A DNA stretch of 64,000 nt from Hyperoplus lanceolatus (lineage: Eukaryota > Chordata > Actinopteri > Uranoscopiformes > Ammodytidae). The notes below the pieces were generated by a model. The model was not told the origin of the DNA and did no database searches. It saw nothing but the letters and a program-made list of their open reading frames with translations. Within the stretch, counting starts at the first letter, position 1. Every line of letters starts with the position of its first letter. The DNA is taken from positions 18,252,501 through 18,316,500 of the forward strand of contig CM049413.1 in assembly GCA_026929865.2 (NCBI GenBank), written 5' to 3'. Below, one piece after another: positions 1,796 through 57,595 of the stretch. The position numbers and the translations under genes are program-made.

Positions 1796-3402
1796 TAGGG
1801 CTGGGCGATATGGACCAAATCTTATATCACAATATAGGTAATTTCATATCACGATATGGATATTTATCACAATATAGTATTTTTCCTTAAAATTCAATGG
1901 ATTACAATAACCGTACTGAACTTTAATCACATTAGATTATTTTCATTTTTGCTTGGAACTTAAATTTCCATACAAAAGAAAAACTGGTGCAAAATACCAC
2001 ACCAGTCTGGCTTTAGTCAGTCAGCGCAAAATAAAAATGACAGCATCAACCAAATAGCCTACATTTTCCAATTGATAGTAGCCTATATCAAAATAATGAA
2101 AGACATGAATTTTCCTGCAGTATTTGCTCATCTTCATCTATAAAAGCTGTCAAAATTAAGTAATGAGCAAATGTCTGGTAATACTTTAACTCCAGCTTCA
2201 ACACAAATAATATTTTCAAGTTTGACATGTTTTAAAGTTACATAAAACCAGCCTTGCTGGCTGTCTCCAACAATAACAGCACGGGGGTGAAGCCCCGAGT
2301 AGGCTAAATATGTCATTATTAGCCAGCTAGCTCATGAGAGCTAACCCATGTAGTTTGCGGCTTAAAACAAACCAACTCTGCGTAACGGCAACAGCACGCT
2401 GAAGCAGCAAGCAAGTTTCCTTTGCCCGATGACATTTTTGACCGTTAAAAGCTGCTCTGCCACCGTGACATGGAGTTGGTTTGTTAACTATAGTGACGGC
2501 GCACCGAAGCTAGACCATAGCTATGTCCCATTACAGAGACCACGCACTTGGTAGGACGCAGTCTCGCGGTCTATGAAGGCTATAGCCTATGAAGGCCGAT
2601 TTTAAGGCCGATTCCAAGGCCAACGAGCCTTGCTAAATGAGACAGTCTCCGCAGGTCTCCGTTTACGAGCATTTCCGGTTTATGTAACAAGCCGTTACCT
2701 TGCGTGACGACTCGCCGCTCCTGTGCTGCCTAGCAACCCTGATTGCTGCCAACGGAGACAGCCCTGTCAATGGAGGAAAAAAGAAAAAGAAGTTGCCTAC
2801 CAGACGAAAAGAAAAAAAAGTACAAGAAAAAAGAAAGGAAGATAAAAGTTAAGAAGATGGAGCAACACGTTGCTATTTTGTTATTTTTTATTTTATTTTA
2901 TGCAATCTCTGAAAAAAACGCAATGAATCTTGGGATATGTTGGGCCATGAAGGATACATCTGATGCAGCCTTCAAAACCGTGAAACGAAGGCTGCATTTC
3001 TCGGCCGCATATGAGGAGCCTTGCAAGGAGCCTTGCAAATGGGACAGCCTTTGCGCGCCGCTATGACGCAATCGGTCTTCAAATGCAGCCTACGTAGGCT
3101 GCAACCCCTGAATCAAGACACAGCTCATGAGCTAGACAGCTAGAGCAACATATGAGGCTTCTTCTGTTGCGGGTAGAGAAGCTGTATTGCAGCCCAGAAC
3201 TCTGCTGCAGAGCCCCCGTGTGGTGCGGCGGTGTAACTGCAGTGTAACTATAGGGACTCGGAGGGACAGCTGCCTCCCACTCCATATATGCTCCCGCCAC
3301 ATGAACTTTTTTTCTCCGCAATATAAACGGTATGGCCAAATCTCTCCCGGTAGACACTTTCATATCGTCTATGATATGATATCGTCATATCGCCCAGCCC
3401 TA
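1796..3402. mobile_element. hAT-like non-autonomous DNA transposon
   Basis: The element begins TAGGGCTGGGCGATATGG and ends ATATCGCCCAGCCCTA, a terminal inverted repeat of about 16 bp. It is flanked on both sides by a perfect 8-bp duplication, CCAGCTAA, at 1788-1795 and 3403-3410. An 8-bp duplication is the signature of the hAT superfamily, and GGGCTGGGCGATAT ends are common in fish repeats. At about 1.6 kb it is too short for a full transposase and no transposase-like frame is present, so it must have been mobilised in trans. The subterminal DNA repeats ATATCACAATAT-like words. The middle (about 2517-3110) differs in style and may be a second, nested insertion. Confidence 0.85.
2517..3115. 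mobile_element. Possible nested element inside the 1796-3402 hAT
   Basis: The middle of the hAT-like element is richer in CG and carries GGCTGTCCCATTTG-type words facing each other: GCTATGTCCCATT near 2519 and AATGGGACAGCC near 3038. It also has repeated GAAGGCCGATT, GGAGCCTTGCAA and AATGCAGCCT words on both sides. A lysine/arginine-rich frame (about 2770-3066) starts in it but resembles no protein I know. I could not find a convincing target duplication, so the edges are guesses. It may simply be internal sequence of the host element. Confidence 0.3.
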
Positions 3403-3410
3403 CCAGCTAA

Positions 3411-6400
3411 CATATCATAGTTACTGCAATAGACGTGCATCAGACTGCTCTCGGTGTCTATTCTCCTGCCTGTAAATGACATGTCGCATCCATCCTCGTC
3501 TCCCTTCCCGGGAATGACTTCTTCCCTTTCTCTCATTATCCCATCCAGCCCACATCTCCCCTTCCTCAGCACAGCTCACCTCAGCTTTTCCTCACTTTTA
3601 CCTTTCCTCTCCCCTGTTCACCCTCCTCTCAAAAAAGCTGACAGCTGCCTTAAGGTTAAAAAAAATATTTGAAAAAAAAAAAACTCTACTGGCTCCCCCC
3701 AGCCTCCTCCCCCCACCTGGGTAGGGGCTGAGTATACCTCTTCTTTATTTATCCAGACCTGTCTTTCACCGTGATATATTTCCTGTCTGCTTCACTTCTT
3801 CTCCACGCCTCGTGCCCTGACAGATATATGGAGAGGGGACAGGGGCCTCACATATAAAAAGGAAGGGAAAGAAAGAAAAATGAAGAGGGAAAGGAGGAAG
3901 GGAAATGTTCCCTTGCATAAACGGGGAACTCTAAAATAGGGGCGCTGACATTGAACCGCAAGAAAAATCTATTGGTCAATTTTGATAAAATGACTCCTGA
4001 ATAGGACAGTGGTTATAGCACTGTATACTATCTAGAAGGACTAAGGGCAGGTCCAATAGAATAGACTGATATAGGCCATACTAATGTCACACACTCATCT
4101 GGCTTAGCATAGCTTTGTTGGCAGACATCAATGCATGTTCATGCCTGTGGAGGTCGGAACGATGGATCGTGTCACCTTTTCTGAAGGCCGAAACCTCTGA
4201 AGTAAAGGTTAGTGTATGTGTGCTCTGTTGTACGCTTTGTTCAAGAGTAATGTAACTAAAAAATAGTATGTGTCCCTGTATGTCTGTGTGGGAGTGCTGT
4301 CGCAGTCATTTGAAAAAATTCCATTCCACACCCATAATAATGTGGAGAGAGAGCCATGTAAAACTTGTGAAGGGAAGAAACCAAAGCTAATGCTCTGTCG
4401 GCTGACATGCTCACAAGGACAATACTAACACGCTGATGAGCAGGTCAAATGTTTACACGATTCAAGATCTCTGCGGAGTTGGTCAGCATGCCAACATTTC
4501 CTCAAACATTAAGGGGATAGCCAAAGTCAATAGAGTACATCTTCAACCGTGTATGATTGAACATGTCTTGATATTACAACATTCACATGCTGGTGGCTTA
4601 AGAGGAAAAGTCAGGGGATCACTGAAGTAAAAAAAAAGATTTGTCCTTTGGGGGACCATTGTACAAAAGTGAATGTAAATTCACCAAACAGTTGTATAGA
4701 TATCTCAGTCTCCACAGAGGGACTTGTCCATCCCTAGGGTTATTAGAGCGTTGCTAGAAAGTATATTGTACTATGAAAAGACTTATCAAATATACACGAT
4801 GGAAAGAAGGAGAGAAAACATAAAGGTAAAAGATAAAGATGACAACATGGAAACCAAAATAAAATTCTAATGTTCTCCGTTAGACAAGATCAAAGCAACA
4901 TAGATAATATCTGATTTAGTCTGATGAAGAGGAACATCAACAGGTACGGTATGTTTTGAAGCAACAAAGGAAATTGCCCTGCCAAACCACTCACACTGCT
5001 GCTGTTGTTCATTAAAGCAAGGACTATTGTGATTCAAATGTTAATGACGATGGCAGAGGGCAATCATACTCACACATAAACAAATAAACACAATCAAATT
5101 GACTCATAAAATCAAAATGTAACATGTCCACTAGATCTAAACATTGTATCCCCATTTTGGACGCATTGAATGCCAATATGTTCCAGATCAAAAGTTATTG
5201 TCCAGATAGAGCACTATTTGCTGTGGAGAGACCATCTGTAAAGAAATCATTTTTGGAATGATCAAATTAAGGTAAAGTCCTAAAGTGTAAAGTGCCTATG
5301 ATTTACTAGTTATCTTAAGTCCTTGAAGTTCATTCACTGCCTTGTAACACGTTGAATACCACTTTGATTCCATAATCACAATGTATCTCCTTACTATAAA
5401 TGACACAATTCTCCACACTGAAAGGCGGAAAAATGTTTTCTTACCAAATGATTGACTCTATCAATACACTCTTATAATGTAGCGGGCACTTAAGAGATGC
5501 TTGGGATGTACACATCACATAGTATGTTACATTAGCTTAGTTTTCTTGTCAAAACATTTCTCCAACAGTAAATAAGTTGTGTGCAAAAACCTTCTGCTCC
5601 GGCGCAATTAAACAAACTTTGACATCTGATGTTTAAACAATGGCTGCCTACGGGCGCTGCATTCAAAATGATATGTTGTCAGGAAGGGAGAGAAGAACCA
5701 ACATGGGAATTAGGGAAAAGGATAAGGTCACAGCTTCTTGCAATTATCAGATGGTTGTTTTGCCATCTGCCCTTCGAGTCTCAGATTTCTGAGTTTCGTT
5801 TAAACGCACCATCCAAGGCCAAAAAAGACAAGGGTGCACCTGCATCACTTAAGACTTAATGAAGTCAACTCAGTGTGCCCTTCAAGACTGTGCGTGTTGA
5901 TTTGATTTTATACCAGTGGAGAAATAAGAACTAATGGCAGACTGAAAGGCAGAAAATCAATGCAAACACCATAACCATGCTTAGGAAAATGTTGTACCTT
6001 TCTCAACAGGCAAGAGCAGGACCCATTACTCTAATGTGAAATTCAGTTCTAAGTCTGTGATAGCTGAAATATTCCAATTTTAAGCGTTCCTCTGCACTCT
6101 AGGTGAAAAAGAAAACAGATGTGTAGAAAGTAGCTGTAAAAACTCTTACTTCCTCAATTCTCCATATGTCCAACCATTGGTGATGGGTCCGCTGCCACTT
6201 AAACAAAGGTTGACATGAACCTACCAAATGGCTAATCATACTCTCTGATATACAACTTCCAAGGCAATATCCATCTTTACCCAGCGCATCAATTCATTTT
6301 CTTTGCATTATCGCCTCACACATGAAATCAATGATTTCCTCCCATTGAGAGCTGCTGTTTTCCATTGGTGAGGTAATACAGCATTTAAAAAAAAAATATC

Positions 6401-28251: not shown

Positions 28252-28979
28252 CTTTCATGCATGCTCTTCCACGTGAAACCGTGCGTTAATTAATAGAACA
28301 TCTCAAACATCCTGTTTCATGTTAGTAAATGAAGTGATAACGAGTGTGACTGATGAAAGCAGGGCATGCTTTAGCCCTCTCTGCCCAAAAATGCTATTCA
28401 TGTCTTCAGGTCTAGAGCCCGGATGACTTAAGTACCACTGCAGGATTGGCCTTTTCCCTCCAGTTAGGCTTAGTTATTTTAGACATCTTCCAAAACGAGC
28501 AGCAATCGAGTACACATATTTCACACTGTATAGCTAAATTGCCCGGTTGCCAAGATGGATTCGCTTGTGGACTGTCTGGGTCTATGGTGGTTATAAAGAA
28601 TTAAAGCCTGCTAAAAAAAAAGTCTGAGACGTTTTTTGTTTGTTTTTCATTTAGAAAATAAGTCATTTTGGGGTGGGAGACATAATTAATTGTGTCCAAG
28701 ATTCTGATCTAAAGTAATTTAATCCCAGTGATGCCAAAATAACTGTGTTCAGATTTAGCGCATTGCTATGTGTCACTGTAACTTAACTGTGGGATTGGGA
28801 GTAAAGATACCCTCCGAAGATGGATGAGGCTATACTTTGGGAAGTGTTATAATCATGTGTAAATGAGTAGGAACATGAATGAGTATTTTCTATTGACATG
28901 TGCATGAATATGATGGAATATCCTGCCAGGAAGTAGACAGGGATGGTGATGACAGATAATTCCATTTAAACAGCAAAAA

Positions 28980-30261
<1,282 letters not shown>

Positions 30262-36438: not shown

Positions 36439-37543
<1,105 letters not shown>

Positions 37544-41552: not shown

Positions 41553-43148
<1,596 letters not shown>

Positions 43149-50980: not shown

Positions 50981-51590
50981 AGGCCAGGACACACCGGTCC
51001 GACTACCGACCGTCACCCGAAAATGGAGTCTGCCCATTCAGACAGCTCCAGTCTTCCCATCACGGCCAAAAAATGCCAAGAACACACCGAGTCTACTACT
51101 GACTCTCTGTACGCTCTGCGCTTGCGCGGGACGTAATGTCTCCATAACAGCAGGCGGCGCTAATATGATATTGTGGCCCAAAAAAATACGGAAGCCGGAA
51201 ATGATGGGACAGCTCTCTAGACCATAAAGAGCACCATGTTTAGCAGAGTGTGTCGAGCAGTCAAGAAGGGTTGATGCATGCGAGTACTCGCTGAACGAAA
51301 CAAACAAACAAATTAAAACAATGGCTAGCGATGCGATACTGTTATCAGCTGTTTGTGCTACCCGCCTCACTTCCGGGCTTTACTGATTCGCTAGCCCTCC
51401 ACCAATCAAATTGCTCCGACTGAAAGACTGGCCGACACCGATTGAACATGTTGAATCGGCTGAAAAGAAGCCCGATGAAGTCTACGACGGCCGACGTCAC
51501 CGAACACACCAAACAGAATTGTGTCCCCGCCCCCTCCAGACTCTCCGACCATGTCCGATGGCCGATTATCGGGCCGGTGTGTCCTGGCCT
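50981..51590. mobile_element. PIF/Harbinger-like MITE
   Basis: The ends AGGCCAGGACACACCGG (50981-50997) and CCGGTGTGTCCTGGCCT (51574-51590) are perfect 17-bp inverted repeats, with partial pairing continuing inward (CCGA.. / ..TCGG). The element is flanked by TAA at 50978-50980 and 51591-51593. A 3-bp TAA/TWA duplication is the PIF/Harbinger signature. At 610 bp it cannot encode the two Harbinger proteins, and the frames inside (about 88 and 110 codons) do not resemble them. Its right TAA is part of the boundary of the larger element that starts at 51594. Confidence 0.88.
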
Positions 51591-52083
51591 TAAAGCAGCT
51601 ACGAGTAACATTTAAATATATTTTAAACAGCCTCATGTTTCCTCAAATAATCATAAATTACCTTTAGCAGTAAACGAGACCATCAGTGCAAAGAAAGACG
51701 TTTTTATATAGTTTTTATTACTGCATTTGATATTTTCGCTCACCCAGTCCGATTTTCGGTTTGCGCATGCAAGCTCTATGGTCACATATTCGTATTGGTC
51801 GCAGATTTCAGTGTAACGCAGCAACGCGATTTGAGAAGCCTATCCCTCCAGGTGAGGGAAGGGGAGTGGGAGCCTTGTTTTAGACGATTATTTGTCGTCA
51901 TAATGACTGATAACGGGCCTGAACCATCAAAGAAAAAAAAGACAATTATTAAACCTATAATAATACGTGTGGTAACACTTTAGTTCGATAGTCCACAGTT
52001 GACACTCAACAAGCCATCAGTTGATACGCAGTTGCATGTCAACAGTGAATGAGTTTACATATCTCAACAGATACGTAACATGA

Positions 52084-52480
52084 ATTCAACTAACTGTAAG
52101 TTAACCATAAGTTGCACTATTAGTAGATGATTAGTTGACATTCAACAGAGCTTGTTCAACAGATAAAAAACAAGGATTCAACTAACTGTCTGTTAACTAT
52201 AGGTTGCACTATTAGTAGATGTTTAGTTGATATTCAATAGTGATTAAGTTGATACATATTTAGAATGCATTCAACTGTCAGTTAACTATAAGTTGCATTT
52301 TTAGTAGATGTTGTTTTGTACACGTAGCATGCATTCAACTAACTGTCAGTTAACTATTAGTTGCATTATTAGTAGATTGTTAGTTGATATTAAAGAATGA
52401 GTTAGTTGATACTCAACAAAGCTTGTCAACAAATATGTAACATGCATTCAACTAAGTGTTAGTTAACTATACAATAATTT
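52084..52480 (+). repeat. Subterminal tandem repeats, about 92-bp unit
   Basis: The unit begins ATTCAACTAACTGT and contains AGTTAACTATAAGTTGCA, TATTAGTAGATG and TTAGTTGATATTCAA. Copies start at about 52084, 52176, 52269, 52333 and 52446, the last two irregular. Short versions of the same TTGA/TCAA words fill the outer 100 bp. Dense subterminal repeats are usual transposase-binding arrays in DNA transposons, so this may be the recognition region. Only the outer copies persist in the right arm (about 56765-56960). Confidence 0.7.
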
Positions 52481-53383
52481 TATTTTGTTAATTTATTTTT
52501 ACAAAAGCAGTCTGCAACAGACATTGTACTTTTTATTACATGTTCTTTACAAATATTCATCAGTTGAGTGTCAACTTCTAGTAAGTTGACTATCAACTGC
52601 TGTTATTAACCAATTCTCAACTTACGTTTCATATGGATCAACTTTCCCACCACTCACAAGGAACACATCTAATGAATGAACATTCAACCCTCTGTTGATC
52701 ATATATGTTCATTGTAAAATAAAGATGAGAATGTTTTATCAATCAATAGGCACCCTGTGTAGGTGACTACCTGTTGATTGTCATATGACTGTCGACAAAC
52801 TATCAGTCAATATTCAACTTAGCATAAGTAGACAGGTCTTGGGACTGTCAAATTAAAGTGAAAACAGTTAGTGTCTACACACTATTAACAGAGGAAAACA
52901 GAGAAAATAGTTGACTATCAGTTGATTCTCAACAAACTATCAGTCGATATTCAACTAAGCATTAGTAGAGAGGTCTTAGGACTGTCAAATTAAAGTGAAA
53001 ACAGTTTAGTGTCTGTAGACACTCTACAAACTAGTAACAGTACAAAATAGAGACAGGTTTTGCTCAACTGATGAGTAACACTGGATGACCCCAAAGTAAA
53101 GTTAAAAAATATATAGGCAGCATATCTGAACAGGAAAGAACATTTATTTGAAGTAAATTTAACTTTTTTCAGTAGTTACACAACATGTAGGTACACAGCA
53201 AGTACCATCAATACCTCTAAAAAAGACAATAAAACTAATGCATGTATTTATTTAGGTGTCAATTGTTTAACGACAGATCGTCCAAAAATTGACATTCAAA
53301 AAGCTCAGTAAAGTGTACCATAACACCCAGTACCACTAGTTATGATACTGAGCAAACATATGTAATATATAACATCAGTTCTC

Positions 53384-53602
53384 ATGAAACGCTTTGTTAT
53401 GGTAAGAAAAAGATATATAATTTTGTTATGGACCAGAATATCTGAAGCTCCTAGTAGCTCGGGAGAAAATGGATTAACAGCAATGGTGAAACAAGACACA
53501 CTGATTCAGCAGTTAGGTTTGACAAGTAAATGTAAAATACTTATTTTCTACTCTCTCTCTTCCTTGAAGTGTATGTCATTGTTGATTCTCAGTAAAACAT
53601 AA
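53384..53602 (+). CDS. Small open frame of unknown nature in the hairpin, left copy
   Basis: This 72-codon frame (MKRFVMVRKRYIILLWTRIS..) is repeated with identical translation on the opposite strand in the right arm (55997-56215). The identity follows from the near-identical arms and is not evidence of selection. I recognise no domain. An overlapping antisense frame also exists. It may well be non-coding. Confidence 0.15.
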   Translation: MKRFVMVRKRYIILLWTRISEAPSSSGENGLTAMVKQDTLIQQLGLTSKCKILIFYSLSSLKCMSLLILSKT

Positions 53603-53685
53603 AAAAACACAACAGTGCCATTTTTTTCATTATGGACTCAAGATAAAACAACGTAATTATCACTCTCCTGTGACCAACCACTAGT

Positions 53686-53958
53686 TTAACCTGGTCCTGC
53701 CACTGTTATTTGAATGAGCACATTTGAATAATTGTTCGCTCTCTTTAGATCCAGTTGTTGGGTTACTAGCCACTCCAGGCCTGCTGTACTCCTCTTCAAT
53801 TGAAGCAGTCGGGCTGAAGAATCCAGGAATCTTGTCCTATCACCCAGTTGATGAACATAGAAAGAAATGATCTGAGAATTACCACAAAATAGTTCAAATG
53901 CATTTTGATTTCCTTTATCTAAACCATTATAGCATTGTGGTTCCACATTAAAACACAT
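53686..53958 (-). CDS. 90-codon open frame in the hairpin, left copy
   Basis: Begins MCFNVEPQCYNGLDKG and ends ..IQITVAGPG. It differs by one residue (GDRTRF against GDTTRF) from the copy at 55641-55913. Its composition is protein-like (mixed hydrophobic and charged residues, LDSSARLLQLKRSTAGLEWL) rather than low-complexity. It runs outward from the hairpin centre. No family was recognised. It could be an exon fragment of a captured or transposase-related gene, or chance. Confidence 0.25.
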   Translation of the reverse strand: MCFNVEPQCYNGLDKGNQNAFELFCGNSQIISFYVHQLGDRTRFLDSSARLLQLKRSTAGLEWLVTQQLDLKRANNYSNVLIQITVAGPG

Positions 53959-54690
53959 AATGCTTTCTATTGCTTTAATAAAATATATTTGGTACCCTAA
54001 TCAAATAAAATTCTCACTGAACCTTGTACAGATTGAAATTATTTTTTAATTAAATAAACATGTAATCTCTATGACCATTCTACACAACACCACATGCATA
54101 GACTCAGTTTTTGCTCACTTTAGACTGAAATAGCAATGTGCACTTTGAATGTGGAACATGCAAACATTTATTCAAATACAGTTTAGTGTTTATAAACACA
54201 CTTTATTTAGACAGATACTTGTGAAGCTAGGCAGCGCTAGGCTCATGCTAACGTTGCTAATATAGCTAGCGCGCTAGGCACGGCGCTAATGCTAACGTGG
54301 CTATGCTAGCGGGAGGCCGCGTCGCTAATATATATGACATTATTCTTACATACACAAAACGATATCTCACAAATACCTCAGTTAACTCACCAATTATTCC
54401 CTTTGGCTAATGGCAGCATACTTGTGACCACCACGGGTCTTCAGTGTGAGATGGATGGGTTGGTCAAGCTGGCTTTTAGCACATAGCTTTACTGTCCAGG
54501 CACACATCCATTTTTTAGCTGCCCAGGTCAGTAAAACGAGCCCTCTCTGTCTTGAAAATGCCCTAACCACGCTGGGGCAGTTCAAGTGCTTGAAAAAGGG
54601 GGGTAATCGTTATGTCGATAATATTCGAAAATCCAGACTCCAAACATATTATCACCTTCCCAAAGTTTAAATACATATTCATAGATGTAT

Positions 54691-54889
54691 CTATGTTTTT
54701 TTATATAATTGTTAATATCAGCAATGGCTGTATAAACCTCTCAAGATTAGAAGACCTAAATAGGCCTACATAGAGTGGTGTGCAATACAATGCGAACGTA
54801 TAGTGGTTACTGATAAATAACAACTATAACCTGTAGGACATTATTGATAATATTGTGAGCAGAAATTATATGAAACAAATATATATTGA
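54691..54889. other. Hairpin centre (loop)
   Basis: About 200 bp of AT-rich DNA separates the arms and shows no clear internal pairing. This spacer is presumably what allows such a long inverted repeat to be cloned and assembled. Confidence 0.6.
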
Positions 54890-55640
54890 TCTATTAATGT
54901 GTATTTTAAACTTTGGGAAGGTGAAAATATGTTTGGAGAGACTTTATTTAGGAAACATATTTCATTTCTAACTGTATCGACATTACGATTTCCCACTTTT
55001 TTCAAGCACTTGAACTCCCCCAGCTTGGTTGGTAAGGGCTGTTTAAGCGAGAGGTCTTGTTCTTTACTGGCAGCTAAAGAGAAGGTTGTGTGTCTGGTCA
55101 GTAAAAGCAGCAGCTATATGCTAAAGACCGCTTGACCAACCAATCCATCTCACACTGAAGACCCGTGGTGGTCACAAGTATGCTGCCATTAGCCAAAGGG
55201 AATAATTGGTGAGTTAACTGAGGTATTTGTGAGATATCGTTTTGTGTATGTAAGAATAATGTCATATATATTAGCGACGCGGCCTCCCGCTAGCATAGCC
55301 ACGTTAGCATTAGCGCGCGCCTAGCGCGCGTAGCTATATTAGCAACGTTAGCATGAGCCTAGCGCTGCCTAGCTTCACAAGTATCTGTCTAAATAAAGTG
55401 TGTTTATAGACACTAAACTGTATTTGAATAAATGTTTGCATGTTCCACATTCAAAGTGCACATTGCTATTTCAGTCTAAAGTGAGCAGAAACTGAGTCTA
55501 TGCATGTGGTGTTGTGTAGAATGGTCATAGAGATTACATGTTTCTTTAATTAAAAAATAATTTCAATCTGTACAAGGTTCAGTGAGAATTTTATTTGATT
55601 AGGGTACCAAATATATTTTATTAAAGCAATAGAAAGCATT

Positions 55641-55913
55641 ATGTGTTTTAATGTGGAACCACAATGCTATAATGGTTTAGATAAAGGAAATCAAAATGCA
55701 TTTGAACTATTTTGTGGTAATTCTCAGATCATTTCTTTCTATGTTCATCAACTGGGTGATACGACAAGATTCCTGGATTCTTCAGCCCGACTGCTTCAAT
55801 TGAAGAGGAGTACAGCAGGCCTGGAGTGGCTAGTAACCCAACAACTGGATCTAAAGAGAGCGAACAATTATTCAAATGTGCTCATTCAAATAACAGTGGC
55901 AGGACCAGGTTAA
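55641..55913 (+). CDS. 90-codon open frame in the hairpin, right copy
   Basis: Mirror copy of the frame at 53686-53958 with one residue changed (Thr for Arg in the GDTTRF word). It ends just before GTTAAACTAG. Upstream toward the centre is a good splice-donor-like sequence (TTG/GTGAGT, about 55208), so it could be one exon of a spliced transcript running outward. Unrecognised product. Confidence 0.25.
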   Translation: MCFNVEPQCYNGLDKGNQNAFELFCGNSQIISFYVHQLGDTTRFLDSSARLLQLKRSTAGLEWLVTQQLDLKRANNYSNVLIQITVAGPG

Positions 55914-55996
55914 ACTAGTGGTTGGTCACAGGAGAGTGATACTTACGTTGTTTTATCTTGAGTCCATAATGAAAAAAATGGCACTGTTGTGTTTTT

Positions 55997-56215
55997 TTAT
56001 GTTTTACTGAGAATCAACAATGACATACACTTCAAGGAAGAGAGAGAGTAGAAAATAAGTATTTTACATTTACTTGTCAAACCTAACTGCTGAATCAGTG
56101 TGTCTTGTTTCACCATTGCTGTTAATCCATTTTCTCCCGAGCTACTAGGAGCTTCAGATATTCTGGTCCATAACAAAATTATATATCTTTTTCTTACCAT
56201 AACAAAGCGTTTCAT
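55997..56215 (-). CDS. Small open frame of unknown nature in the hairpin, right copy
   Basis: Same 72-residue translation as 53384-53602. It is likely a passenger of arm duplication. No recognisable domain. Confidence 0.15.
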   Translation of the reverse strand: MKRFVMVRKRYIILLWTRISEAPSSSGENGLTAMVKQDTLIQQLGLTSKCKILIFYSLSSLKCMSLLILSKT

Positions 56216-57082
56216 GAGAACTGATGTTATATATTACATACTGTATGTTTGCTCAGTATCATAACTAGTGGTACTGGGTGTTATGGTACACTTTACTGAG
56301 CTTTTTGAATGTCAATTTTTGGACGATCTGTCGTTAAACAATTGCCTAAGTGACACCTAAATAAATACATGCATTAGTTTTATTGTCTTTTTTAGAGGTA
56401 TTGTTGGTACTTGCTGTGTACCTACATGTTGTGTAACTACTGAAAAAAGTTAAATTTACTTCAAATAAATGTTCTTTCCTGTTCAGATATGCTGCCTATA
56501 TATTTTTTAACTTTACTTTGGGGTCATCCAGTGTTACTCATCAGTTGAGCAAAACTTGTCTCTATTTTGTACTGTTACTAGTTTGTAGAGTGTCTACAGA
56601 CACTAAACTGTTTTCACTTTAATTTGACAGTCCTAAGACCTCTCTACTAATGCTTAGTTGAATATCGACTGATAGTTTGTTGAGAATCAACTATTTTCTC
56701 TGTTTTGCTCTGTTGATAGTTTGCAGACACTAAACTGTTTTCACTTTAATTTGACAGTCCTAACTGACAGTTGAATGCATTCTAAATATGTATCAACTTA
56801 TTCACTATTGAATATCAACTAAACATCTACTAATAGTGCAACCTATAGTTAACAGACAGTTAGTTGAATCCTTGTTTTTTATCTGTTGAACAAGCTCTGT
56901 TGAATGTCAACTAATCATCTACTAATAGTGCAACTTATGGTTAACTTACAGTTAGTTGAATACATGTTACGTATCTGTTGAGATATGTAAACTCATTCAC
57001 TGTTGACATGCAACTGCGTATCAACTGATGGCTTGTTGAGTGTCAACTGTGGACTATCGAACTAAAGTGTTACCATACGGGT

Positions 57083-57595
57083 TTGTTTATTCGGAAATAA
57101 GGAAGGTAAAAAATAAAGAATGACTGGAACAAGTTTCAAAGTTCTCAAGTGTTGTTTAATAAAGTCAAATCGCAGGACAGCTTATGCAGGTTTCAGAAGA
57201 CAGCAACAAGTGAAAAAGTGAAACGTCCTTATCGACAGCAAGGCTTTTTAACCTTCCTAAACAAAGGATAATGATTGGTTTTTATTGCTGTCATCTGGTT
57301 TCAGGGATCATCCTCTTCTCCTTCCTGGCCGTCCTCTTCATTGAACTAAGCGAAAGTAGGGTTAATCTTCCCAGCCTTGAATGTATCTAAAGCTTGACTG
57401 GACTGAGTGAGGAACTATCAGAAGGCCTTTGTTATTAAACAGATACATCGCCTTGCCCTCTAGGCTTATTTTATGGGGAAAAACATCGTACAGTTTTACA
57501 ACAAGATTTATTGCTATTTCTTCTCCTCAAACTGTCCCTGCTCAAGGCCTTAAATGAGAACATTTTAGATCACATGTTATGAATGTATCGATTGT
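57083..57595. other. Unassigned DNA between the hairpin and the RT fragment
   Basis: No gene. The region has AAATAAAG near its left end and TTTAATAAAGTC at about 57157. Its density of polyadenylation-like words suggests part of a retroelement or LTR, but I found no matching repeat ends to prove it. It is probably interior or insertion DNA of the split TTAA element. Confidence 0.35.

Follow-up and report, generated by a model that had tools for sequence, protein, structure and literature searches.

A probable young family of fold-back DNA transposons with long inverted arms in the genome of Hyperoplus lanceolatus

Transposons that fold back on themselves over kilobases are known mainly from insects, and long hairpins give rise to rearrangements and double-stranded RNA. 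A kilobase-scale hairpin lies in the stretch of Hyperoplus lanceolatus DNA analyzed here (Ammodytidae; assembly GCA_026929865.2, contig CM049413.1, positions 18,252,501 to 18,316,500, forward strand; 64,000 nucleotides, hereafter the window), and it raises the questions of what kind of element it is, and how its two arms have stayed so alike. Here, we report that the hairpin very probably belongs to a young, multicopy, nonautonomous family of fold-back DNA transposons, with two long inverted arms, a short loop, no detectable coding content, and arms homogenized by conversion. The host holds the young, near-identical family together with an older subfamily, nested insertions that serve as natural barriers, and empty paralogous sites; the family thereby makes it testable how palindromic arms stay identical and how insertion gaps are filled.

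The hairpin, its copies, and its target site

The element spans 5,104 bp (51971 to 57074 of the window). Its ends, GGTAACACTTTAGTTCGATA and TATCGAACTAAAGTGTTACC, lie exactly at these two positions, the tips are perfect inverted repeats, and both the ends and the overall structure recur in other copies. Self-comparison on the minus strand gave a best score of 2,914 bits, versus at most 41.9 bits in 20 dinucleotide shuffles, and no second family copy was found within the window by this comparison.

A search of the host genome for the 23-base tip, allowing 3 mismatches, gave 238 matches (117 in forward and 121 in reverse orientation; control, 1 and 0, respectively), the first 100 of which were listed. 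The terminal 314 bp gave 75 matches (40 of 264 candidates scored, those at 99 to 100% identity). From the terminal-block matches, 25 further loci (given L numbers here) were retrieved, 13 of them chosen because two ends face each other. Both inverted arms were present in 23 of the 25, and one arm in the retrieved stretch of L022 and of L029. The window copy and the 19 retrieved loci with two recognizable ends form a set of 20, of which 15 keep the loop marker; internal deletions were found in L010, L011, L016, L019, and L027, and inserts of 0.6 to 1.6 kb in eight copies. Two near-intact copies (L013, 5,681 bp; L018, 5,690 bp) have both arms at full length, with 2.5 kb at 97 to 100% identity per 100 bp and then a sharp drop, and two mini-forms keep both ends (L058, 192 bp; L059, 286 bp, with a perfect target site duplication [TSD], AGATTCAA). 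Different 8-bp duplications flank different copies, both ends moving as one unit to many sites, and copies differ on average by 0.84 to 1.88% (four arm segments). An inner query (54560 to 55040; 40 scored of 233 candidates) returned 29 matches at 97 to 100% and 11 at 92 to 94%. The latter group, 11 among the matches listed, is an older subfamily, of which L034 and L035 were read.

The initial annotation had described a 5.1-kb hairpin with kilobase inverted arms and an 8-bp flanking duplication, and had named as checks other copies with the same ends, architecture, and 8-bp duplications, and empty sites. The hairpin was confirmed at 51971 to 57074, with flanks alike at 7 of 8 positions, and both the other copies and empty sites (as eight retrieved paralogues in the host genome) were found. 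None of the refuting outcomes that it had named was observed in these assembly-based comparisons. Of the two origins that it had put forward, a fold-back transposon that was active recently and consists almost entirely of its arms gains support from the many copies, their varied TSDs, their differences of 0.8 to 1.9%, and the empty paralogues. The other, a head-to-head double insertion mobilized as a composite, found no support and, taken as two insertions of a shorter element that moved together afterward, is in our view very unlikely. It would fit an inner inverted repeat of greater age and divergence than the outer arms, which gives the palindrome at least two ages, and the one-armed copies among the retrieved stretches (L022 and L029). 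Against it, the 22 two-ended copies read in whole (the set of 20, L058, and L059) are all the hairpin or its deletion and insertion forms, the single arm of L029 runs into unrelated DNA rather than a second end, and the diverged inner arms are symmetric at the center in several copies, a symmetry that two chance insertions would not give.

Long inverted repeats are also a frequent artifact of long-read libraries, and a fold-back read could have entered the assembly as a chimera. This we regard as a negligible prospect, because the arms stop precisely at the tips, an 8-bp repeat and differing flanks lie beyond, and the two arms are set apart by single-nucleotide polymorphisms and indels, while the hairpin recurs at many loci with other TSDs and empty target sites exist.

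In the preferred reading, as a fold-back transposon, the window copy has the following anatomy. The left terminal block of the arm (51971 to 52284, plus strand) is identical at 312 of 314 positions to the reversed right block (56761 to 57074, minus strand). Each block holds a subterminal tandem repeat rich in GTTGA/TCAAC, with 1.9 copies of a 92-bp unit (52064 to 52237, plus strand; 56808 to 56981, minus strand; repeat scan and, on the left, motif counts); such a repetitive outer arm is a trait of the fold-back class, as are the structure itself, with inverted arms accounting for the greater part of the length, and movement as a single unit, with a target duplication, to several sites. Next on the left lies a 557-bp part (52285 to 52841, plus strand) that alignment shows to be deleted from the right arm and that both arms keep in L013 and L018. 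The rest of the near-identical outer arm runs from 52842 to 54456 on the left (plus strand) and from 55142 to 56760 on the right (minus strand); against the right arm, 52842 to 52919 is identical at 63 of 67 positions with one 11-bp gap, and 52920 to 54456 at 1,528 of 1,536 with five short gaps. The diverged inner arms follow (left, 54457 to 54720, plus strand; right, 54860 to 55141, minus strand), identical at 200 of 250 positions, and enclose a loop without clear pairing (approximately 54721 to 54859). Two corrections to the initial annotation are needed: the loss of identity is not even but comes as a sharp step some 2.5 kb (approximately) inward of the ends, and a large deletion (about 557 bp) lies in the right arm.

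The left TSD, ATACGTGT (51963 to 51970, plus strand), is the preinsertion sequence. The right TSD, ATACGGGT (57075 to 57082, plus strand), is altered at position 6, as judged from flank comparison and the empty sites. The joined window flanks match at least 39 other places across the insertion site (40 of 321 candidates scored), and in the eight empty paralogues retrieved the site is present once in each, so the window hairpin is a real insertion. Six of the eight sites equal ATACGTGT, and one each reads ATATGTGT and CTAGGTGT, variants by one to two bases; T stands at position 6 in all eight (the alignment of the empty site L092 was shifted, and its site was read by eye). The flank matches and empty sites together identify the target as a dispersed repeat, of which 8 bp were duplicated, the right copy becoming ATACGGGT at insertion or later. 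Remnants of this repeat, recognized by the matches of the joined flanks, lie at 51947 to 51970 on the left and 57083 to 57179 on the right (both plus strand; the query ended at 57179).

A further dispersed repeat (51590 to 51946; 90% identical to L049 on C5) lies directly left of the target repeat. Separately, L015 and L016 share a 1.12-kb nested element with inverted ends GGGGAAGGTGGGG (element positions 871 to 1994 and 3010 to 4134, respectively), the two being 99.4% identical to each other.

Concerted evolution of the outer arms

Within each copy, the outer 2.5-kb arms show concerted evolution. Arms were oriented by the loop as A and B and compared over four segments, each represented by 25 to 30 arms; no fixed A/B difference was found in any of the four, and the arms of one copy differ by means of 0.65, 0.68, 0.69, and 0.86%, against means of 0.84 to 1.88% between copies. 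In seven segments, 40 variants are, within the sample, private to a single copy and present on both of its arms. Of the variants common to several copies, 54 were present on both arms and 46 on one, and in segment 900 to 1280 all 9 common variants are present on both arms.

This concert ends abruptly toward the center. In L013, L018, and L009, identity drops from 97 to 100% to 66 to 69 of 100 columns at the inner arm, and in the window copy the inner arms share 80% identity with each other. The inner-A sequences of 15 copies differ by a mean of 1.26%, one divergent state family-wide. It also ends behind nested insertions: in the older subfamily, the same 1.33-kb insert lies in arm A of L034 (1186 to 2516) and of L035 (4004 to 5329), and arm identity behind it is 361/394 and 360/396, respectively, versus 393/397 in the section of the window copy. 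Outside the insert, the arms of L035 are 98.6% identical over 1,172 bp.

These data are read most simply as recurrent copying between the arms, halted by heterology. Gene conversion between arms, or fold-back copying, would homogenize the outer arms and would stop where the arms are too different, at the older inner inverted repeat or at a nested insertion. More speculatively, the long palindrome may have begun when one arm was copied onto the other by fold-back priming at the inner inverted repeat, which is a candidate for the founding primer because of its central position.

Two sets of counts weigh against full homogenization. The own partner arm is nearest or tied in 4/11, 7/11, 5/10, and 7/15 copies of the four segments, by which homogenization is partial, and most private variants (153) are found on one arm only. 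It is also conceivable, if unlikely, that the arms are alike merely because the family is young, with conversion unneeded. Copies differ by only 0.8 to 1.9% on average, so little time has passed; youth alone, however, leaves the 40 private variants that are doubled within their copy, the 9 of 9 common variants on both arms of segment 900 to 1280, and the divergence of arms behind the nested insertion in the older subfamily to be accounted for.

Imperfect target site duplications

TSDs were compared in 27 two-ended copies (the window copy, the 19 retrieved loci, L058, L059, and 5 of 10 further pairs); L025 was left out for an altered tip, and L022, L026, L028, L029, L032, and five pairs for a missing end. 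Perfect 8-bp TSDs, mutually different, flank 13 of the 27. The rest hold 32 mismatches, 31 of them at positions 1 to 3 and 6 to 8 and one at position 4. Among the 31 edge mismatches, the outer base equals that of the tip triplet of the element (ACC left, GGT right) in 29, the inner base does so in 2, and there is no case of neither (sign test, 2.3e-7, for a hypothesis devised on the same data). Flanks differ at 5 of 8 positions in L058 and in L054/L055; those of L054 and L058 are possibly not true pairs, and subtracting both leaves 21 of 22. The direction is known for the window copy only, in which the outer TSD is the changed one when compared with the empty sites. The base immediately outside the TSD, read toward the element, is A in 31 of 40 cases (first 20 copies).

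In ordinary DDE insertion, gap-fill synthesis begins at the outer edge. We tentatively suggest, as an idea that we hold to be somewhat more doubtful than probable, that the tip 5'-GGT serves as template for the first one to three bases laid down at either outer edge of the 8-bp gap, leaving ACC...GGT duplication edges. The new strand would then begin with A-C-C at bases 1 to 3, complementary to 5'-GGT, with the tip perhaps used briefly as a template and partial mismatch repair following. If true, this would be a tip-templated gap-repair signature of the transposase; if general, it would make gap repair readable from genome sequence alone and offer a clue to the missing transposase.

Three other explanations of the edges were rejected. 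A and T are the bases expected from the tip at positions 1 and 8, respectively, and the outer base agrees there in 5 of 6 mismatches, which argues against a simple gain of G+C in the outer TSD copy. Carry-over of the donor flank was set aside because the inner bases stay varied in perfect copies, and loss of an inner G was dropped after the empty sites had been read. In the literature on imperfect TSDs, no such edge pattern was recognized from titles and abstracts, most subscription journals being outside the search.

Transposase partner and known systems

A cut-and-paste transposase supplied in trans may act on the GGTAACAC tips, and the GTTGA/TCAAC-rich subterminal repeats perhaps help its action. 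Pfam families (E values up to 1) were absent from ten open reading frames and from six frames of arm plus loop, and the Rfam scan of the window gave no match above the gathering score. Frames of at least 150 amino acids in the 20 two-ended copies amounted to one, of 175 amino acids in L014, lying mostly within a nested insert.

An element with 8-bp TSDs might belong to a known superfamily (hAT, KDZ/Zisupton, Mutator, or P) that has an autonomous copy in the host genome, a possibility that we place only slightly short of even. The TSD length suits several of these superfamilies, and coding matches to all four are present in the host genome. Measured from 108 known ends (of about 240), however, the nearest of the 18 KDZ transposase places is 240 kb away, the nearest of 8 MULE matches 695 kb, the nearest of 19 P-type (PF21787) matches 681 kb, and the nearest hAT match (150 scored of 722 candidates) 15 kb, and the KDZ loci L056 and L057 have no such end within 8 kb. 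Shortened tips joined to a different subterminal sequence occurred at control counts in the host genome: the first 20 bp gave 1 match (control, 1), and the first 14 bp gave 4 (control, 4), one of which is the hairpin copy L026. Within these limits there is no second element type with the same tip, and no autonomous partner was found among the KDZ, MULE, P, and hAT matches or the tip variants. Several of the 18 KDZ/Zisupton matches are without stops.

Individual candidates for an autonomous partner were read and rejected. L079 (C1:30773660-30774460) is a 34-bp tip stub followed by single-copy DNA and then an abundant repeat; L028 holds a 4.3-kb nested insert without a frame of 100 amino acids; and two long copies, L082 and L083, have long frames of retrotransposon look (labeled by eye). 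A hAT exon lies 714 bp from the 20-bp-like end of L084, on its outer side, and L056 and L057 were rejected as KDZ partners for want of a hairpin-type end within the distance given above.

Several points tell against a nonautonomous family moved in trans. No transposase with these ends was found, so that movement in trans is deduced from structure. Family sequence was absent 2.3 to 3.1 kb inside 13 of 18 single ends; of the four of these that were read, L080 and L081 run on as arm, whereas L078 breaks off at 138 bp and L079 at 34 bp, and an odd or autonomous copy could hide among the remaining nine. The ends listed are 100 of 238, with 138 outside them. The partner may have divergent tips, may lie behind one of the unlisted ends as a coding interior, or may have been lost.

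Long inverted arms likewise form most of the Drosophila FB elements and of the fold-back elements of sea urchins and plants, all in other hosts; these elements are listed in PMC4079207. The noncoding copies of Galileo (Drosophila, P superfamily; two-TIR [terminal inverted repeat] and 2RT copies) are also almost wholly long inverted arms: copy 112 of D. willistoni has TIRs of 4,246 and 4,680 bp in 9,021 bp, with TIR-to-TIR transfer inferred (PMC4168063), and in D. mojavensis internal sequence was recruited into both TIRs (PMC3573991). Galileo differs in its 7-bp TSD (D. mojavensis; PMC3573991), versus 8 bp in the fish hairpin (perfect at 8 bp in 13 of 27), and in having coding copies, none of which was found for the hairpin; the two are likened by description and not by sequence. 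Tetris of Drosophila virilis is a nonautonomous fold-back element with TIRs of up to 1,735 bp, internal tandem repeats, TSDs of 8 to 9 bp in complete copies, and short derivatives that share its ends (PMC4079207). It has 220-bp repeats and three complete copies, whereas the fish hairpin has a 92-bp unit, and this likeness too is one of description. Galileo and Tetris already have kilobase hairpins, so that size alone does not set the fish hairpin apart as a new kind.

Among the superfamilies with a suitable TSD, KDZ/Zisupton has 8 bp (PMC12730594) and Mutator 8 to 11 bp, often with long TIRs (PMC6446971), both matched by the fish hairpin. Miniature inverted-repeat transposable elements (MITEs) are under about 600 bp, a size shared by L058 and L059, which keep both ends, and exceeded by the window copy (5,104 bp) and the standard hairpin copy (5.68 to 5.69 kb). 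hAT elements, whose 8-bp TSD the hairpin matches, have TIRs of the CA/TA..TG type, and the GGTAACAC tips do not follow this rule.

The element had initially been called undescribed. No description was found, a statement that holds for the literature searched and apart from repeat databases: the tip sequence was absent from it in both orientations, and the hairpin family was not recognized in the literature on fold-back elements of fish and other vertebrates, in a search that ran without most subscription journals. Sequence patterns searched in viral contigs (two) and genome contigs (one) gave no matches. Elsewhere, long GT/AC dinucleotide arrays are numerous across the window (for example, at 28979 to 29174, 36441 to 36631, and 43025 to 43146).

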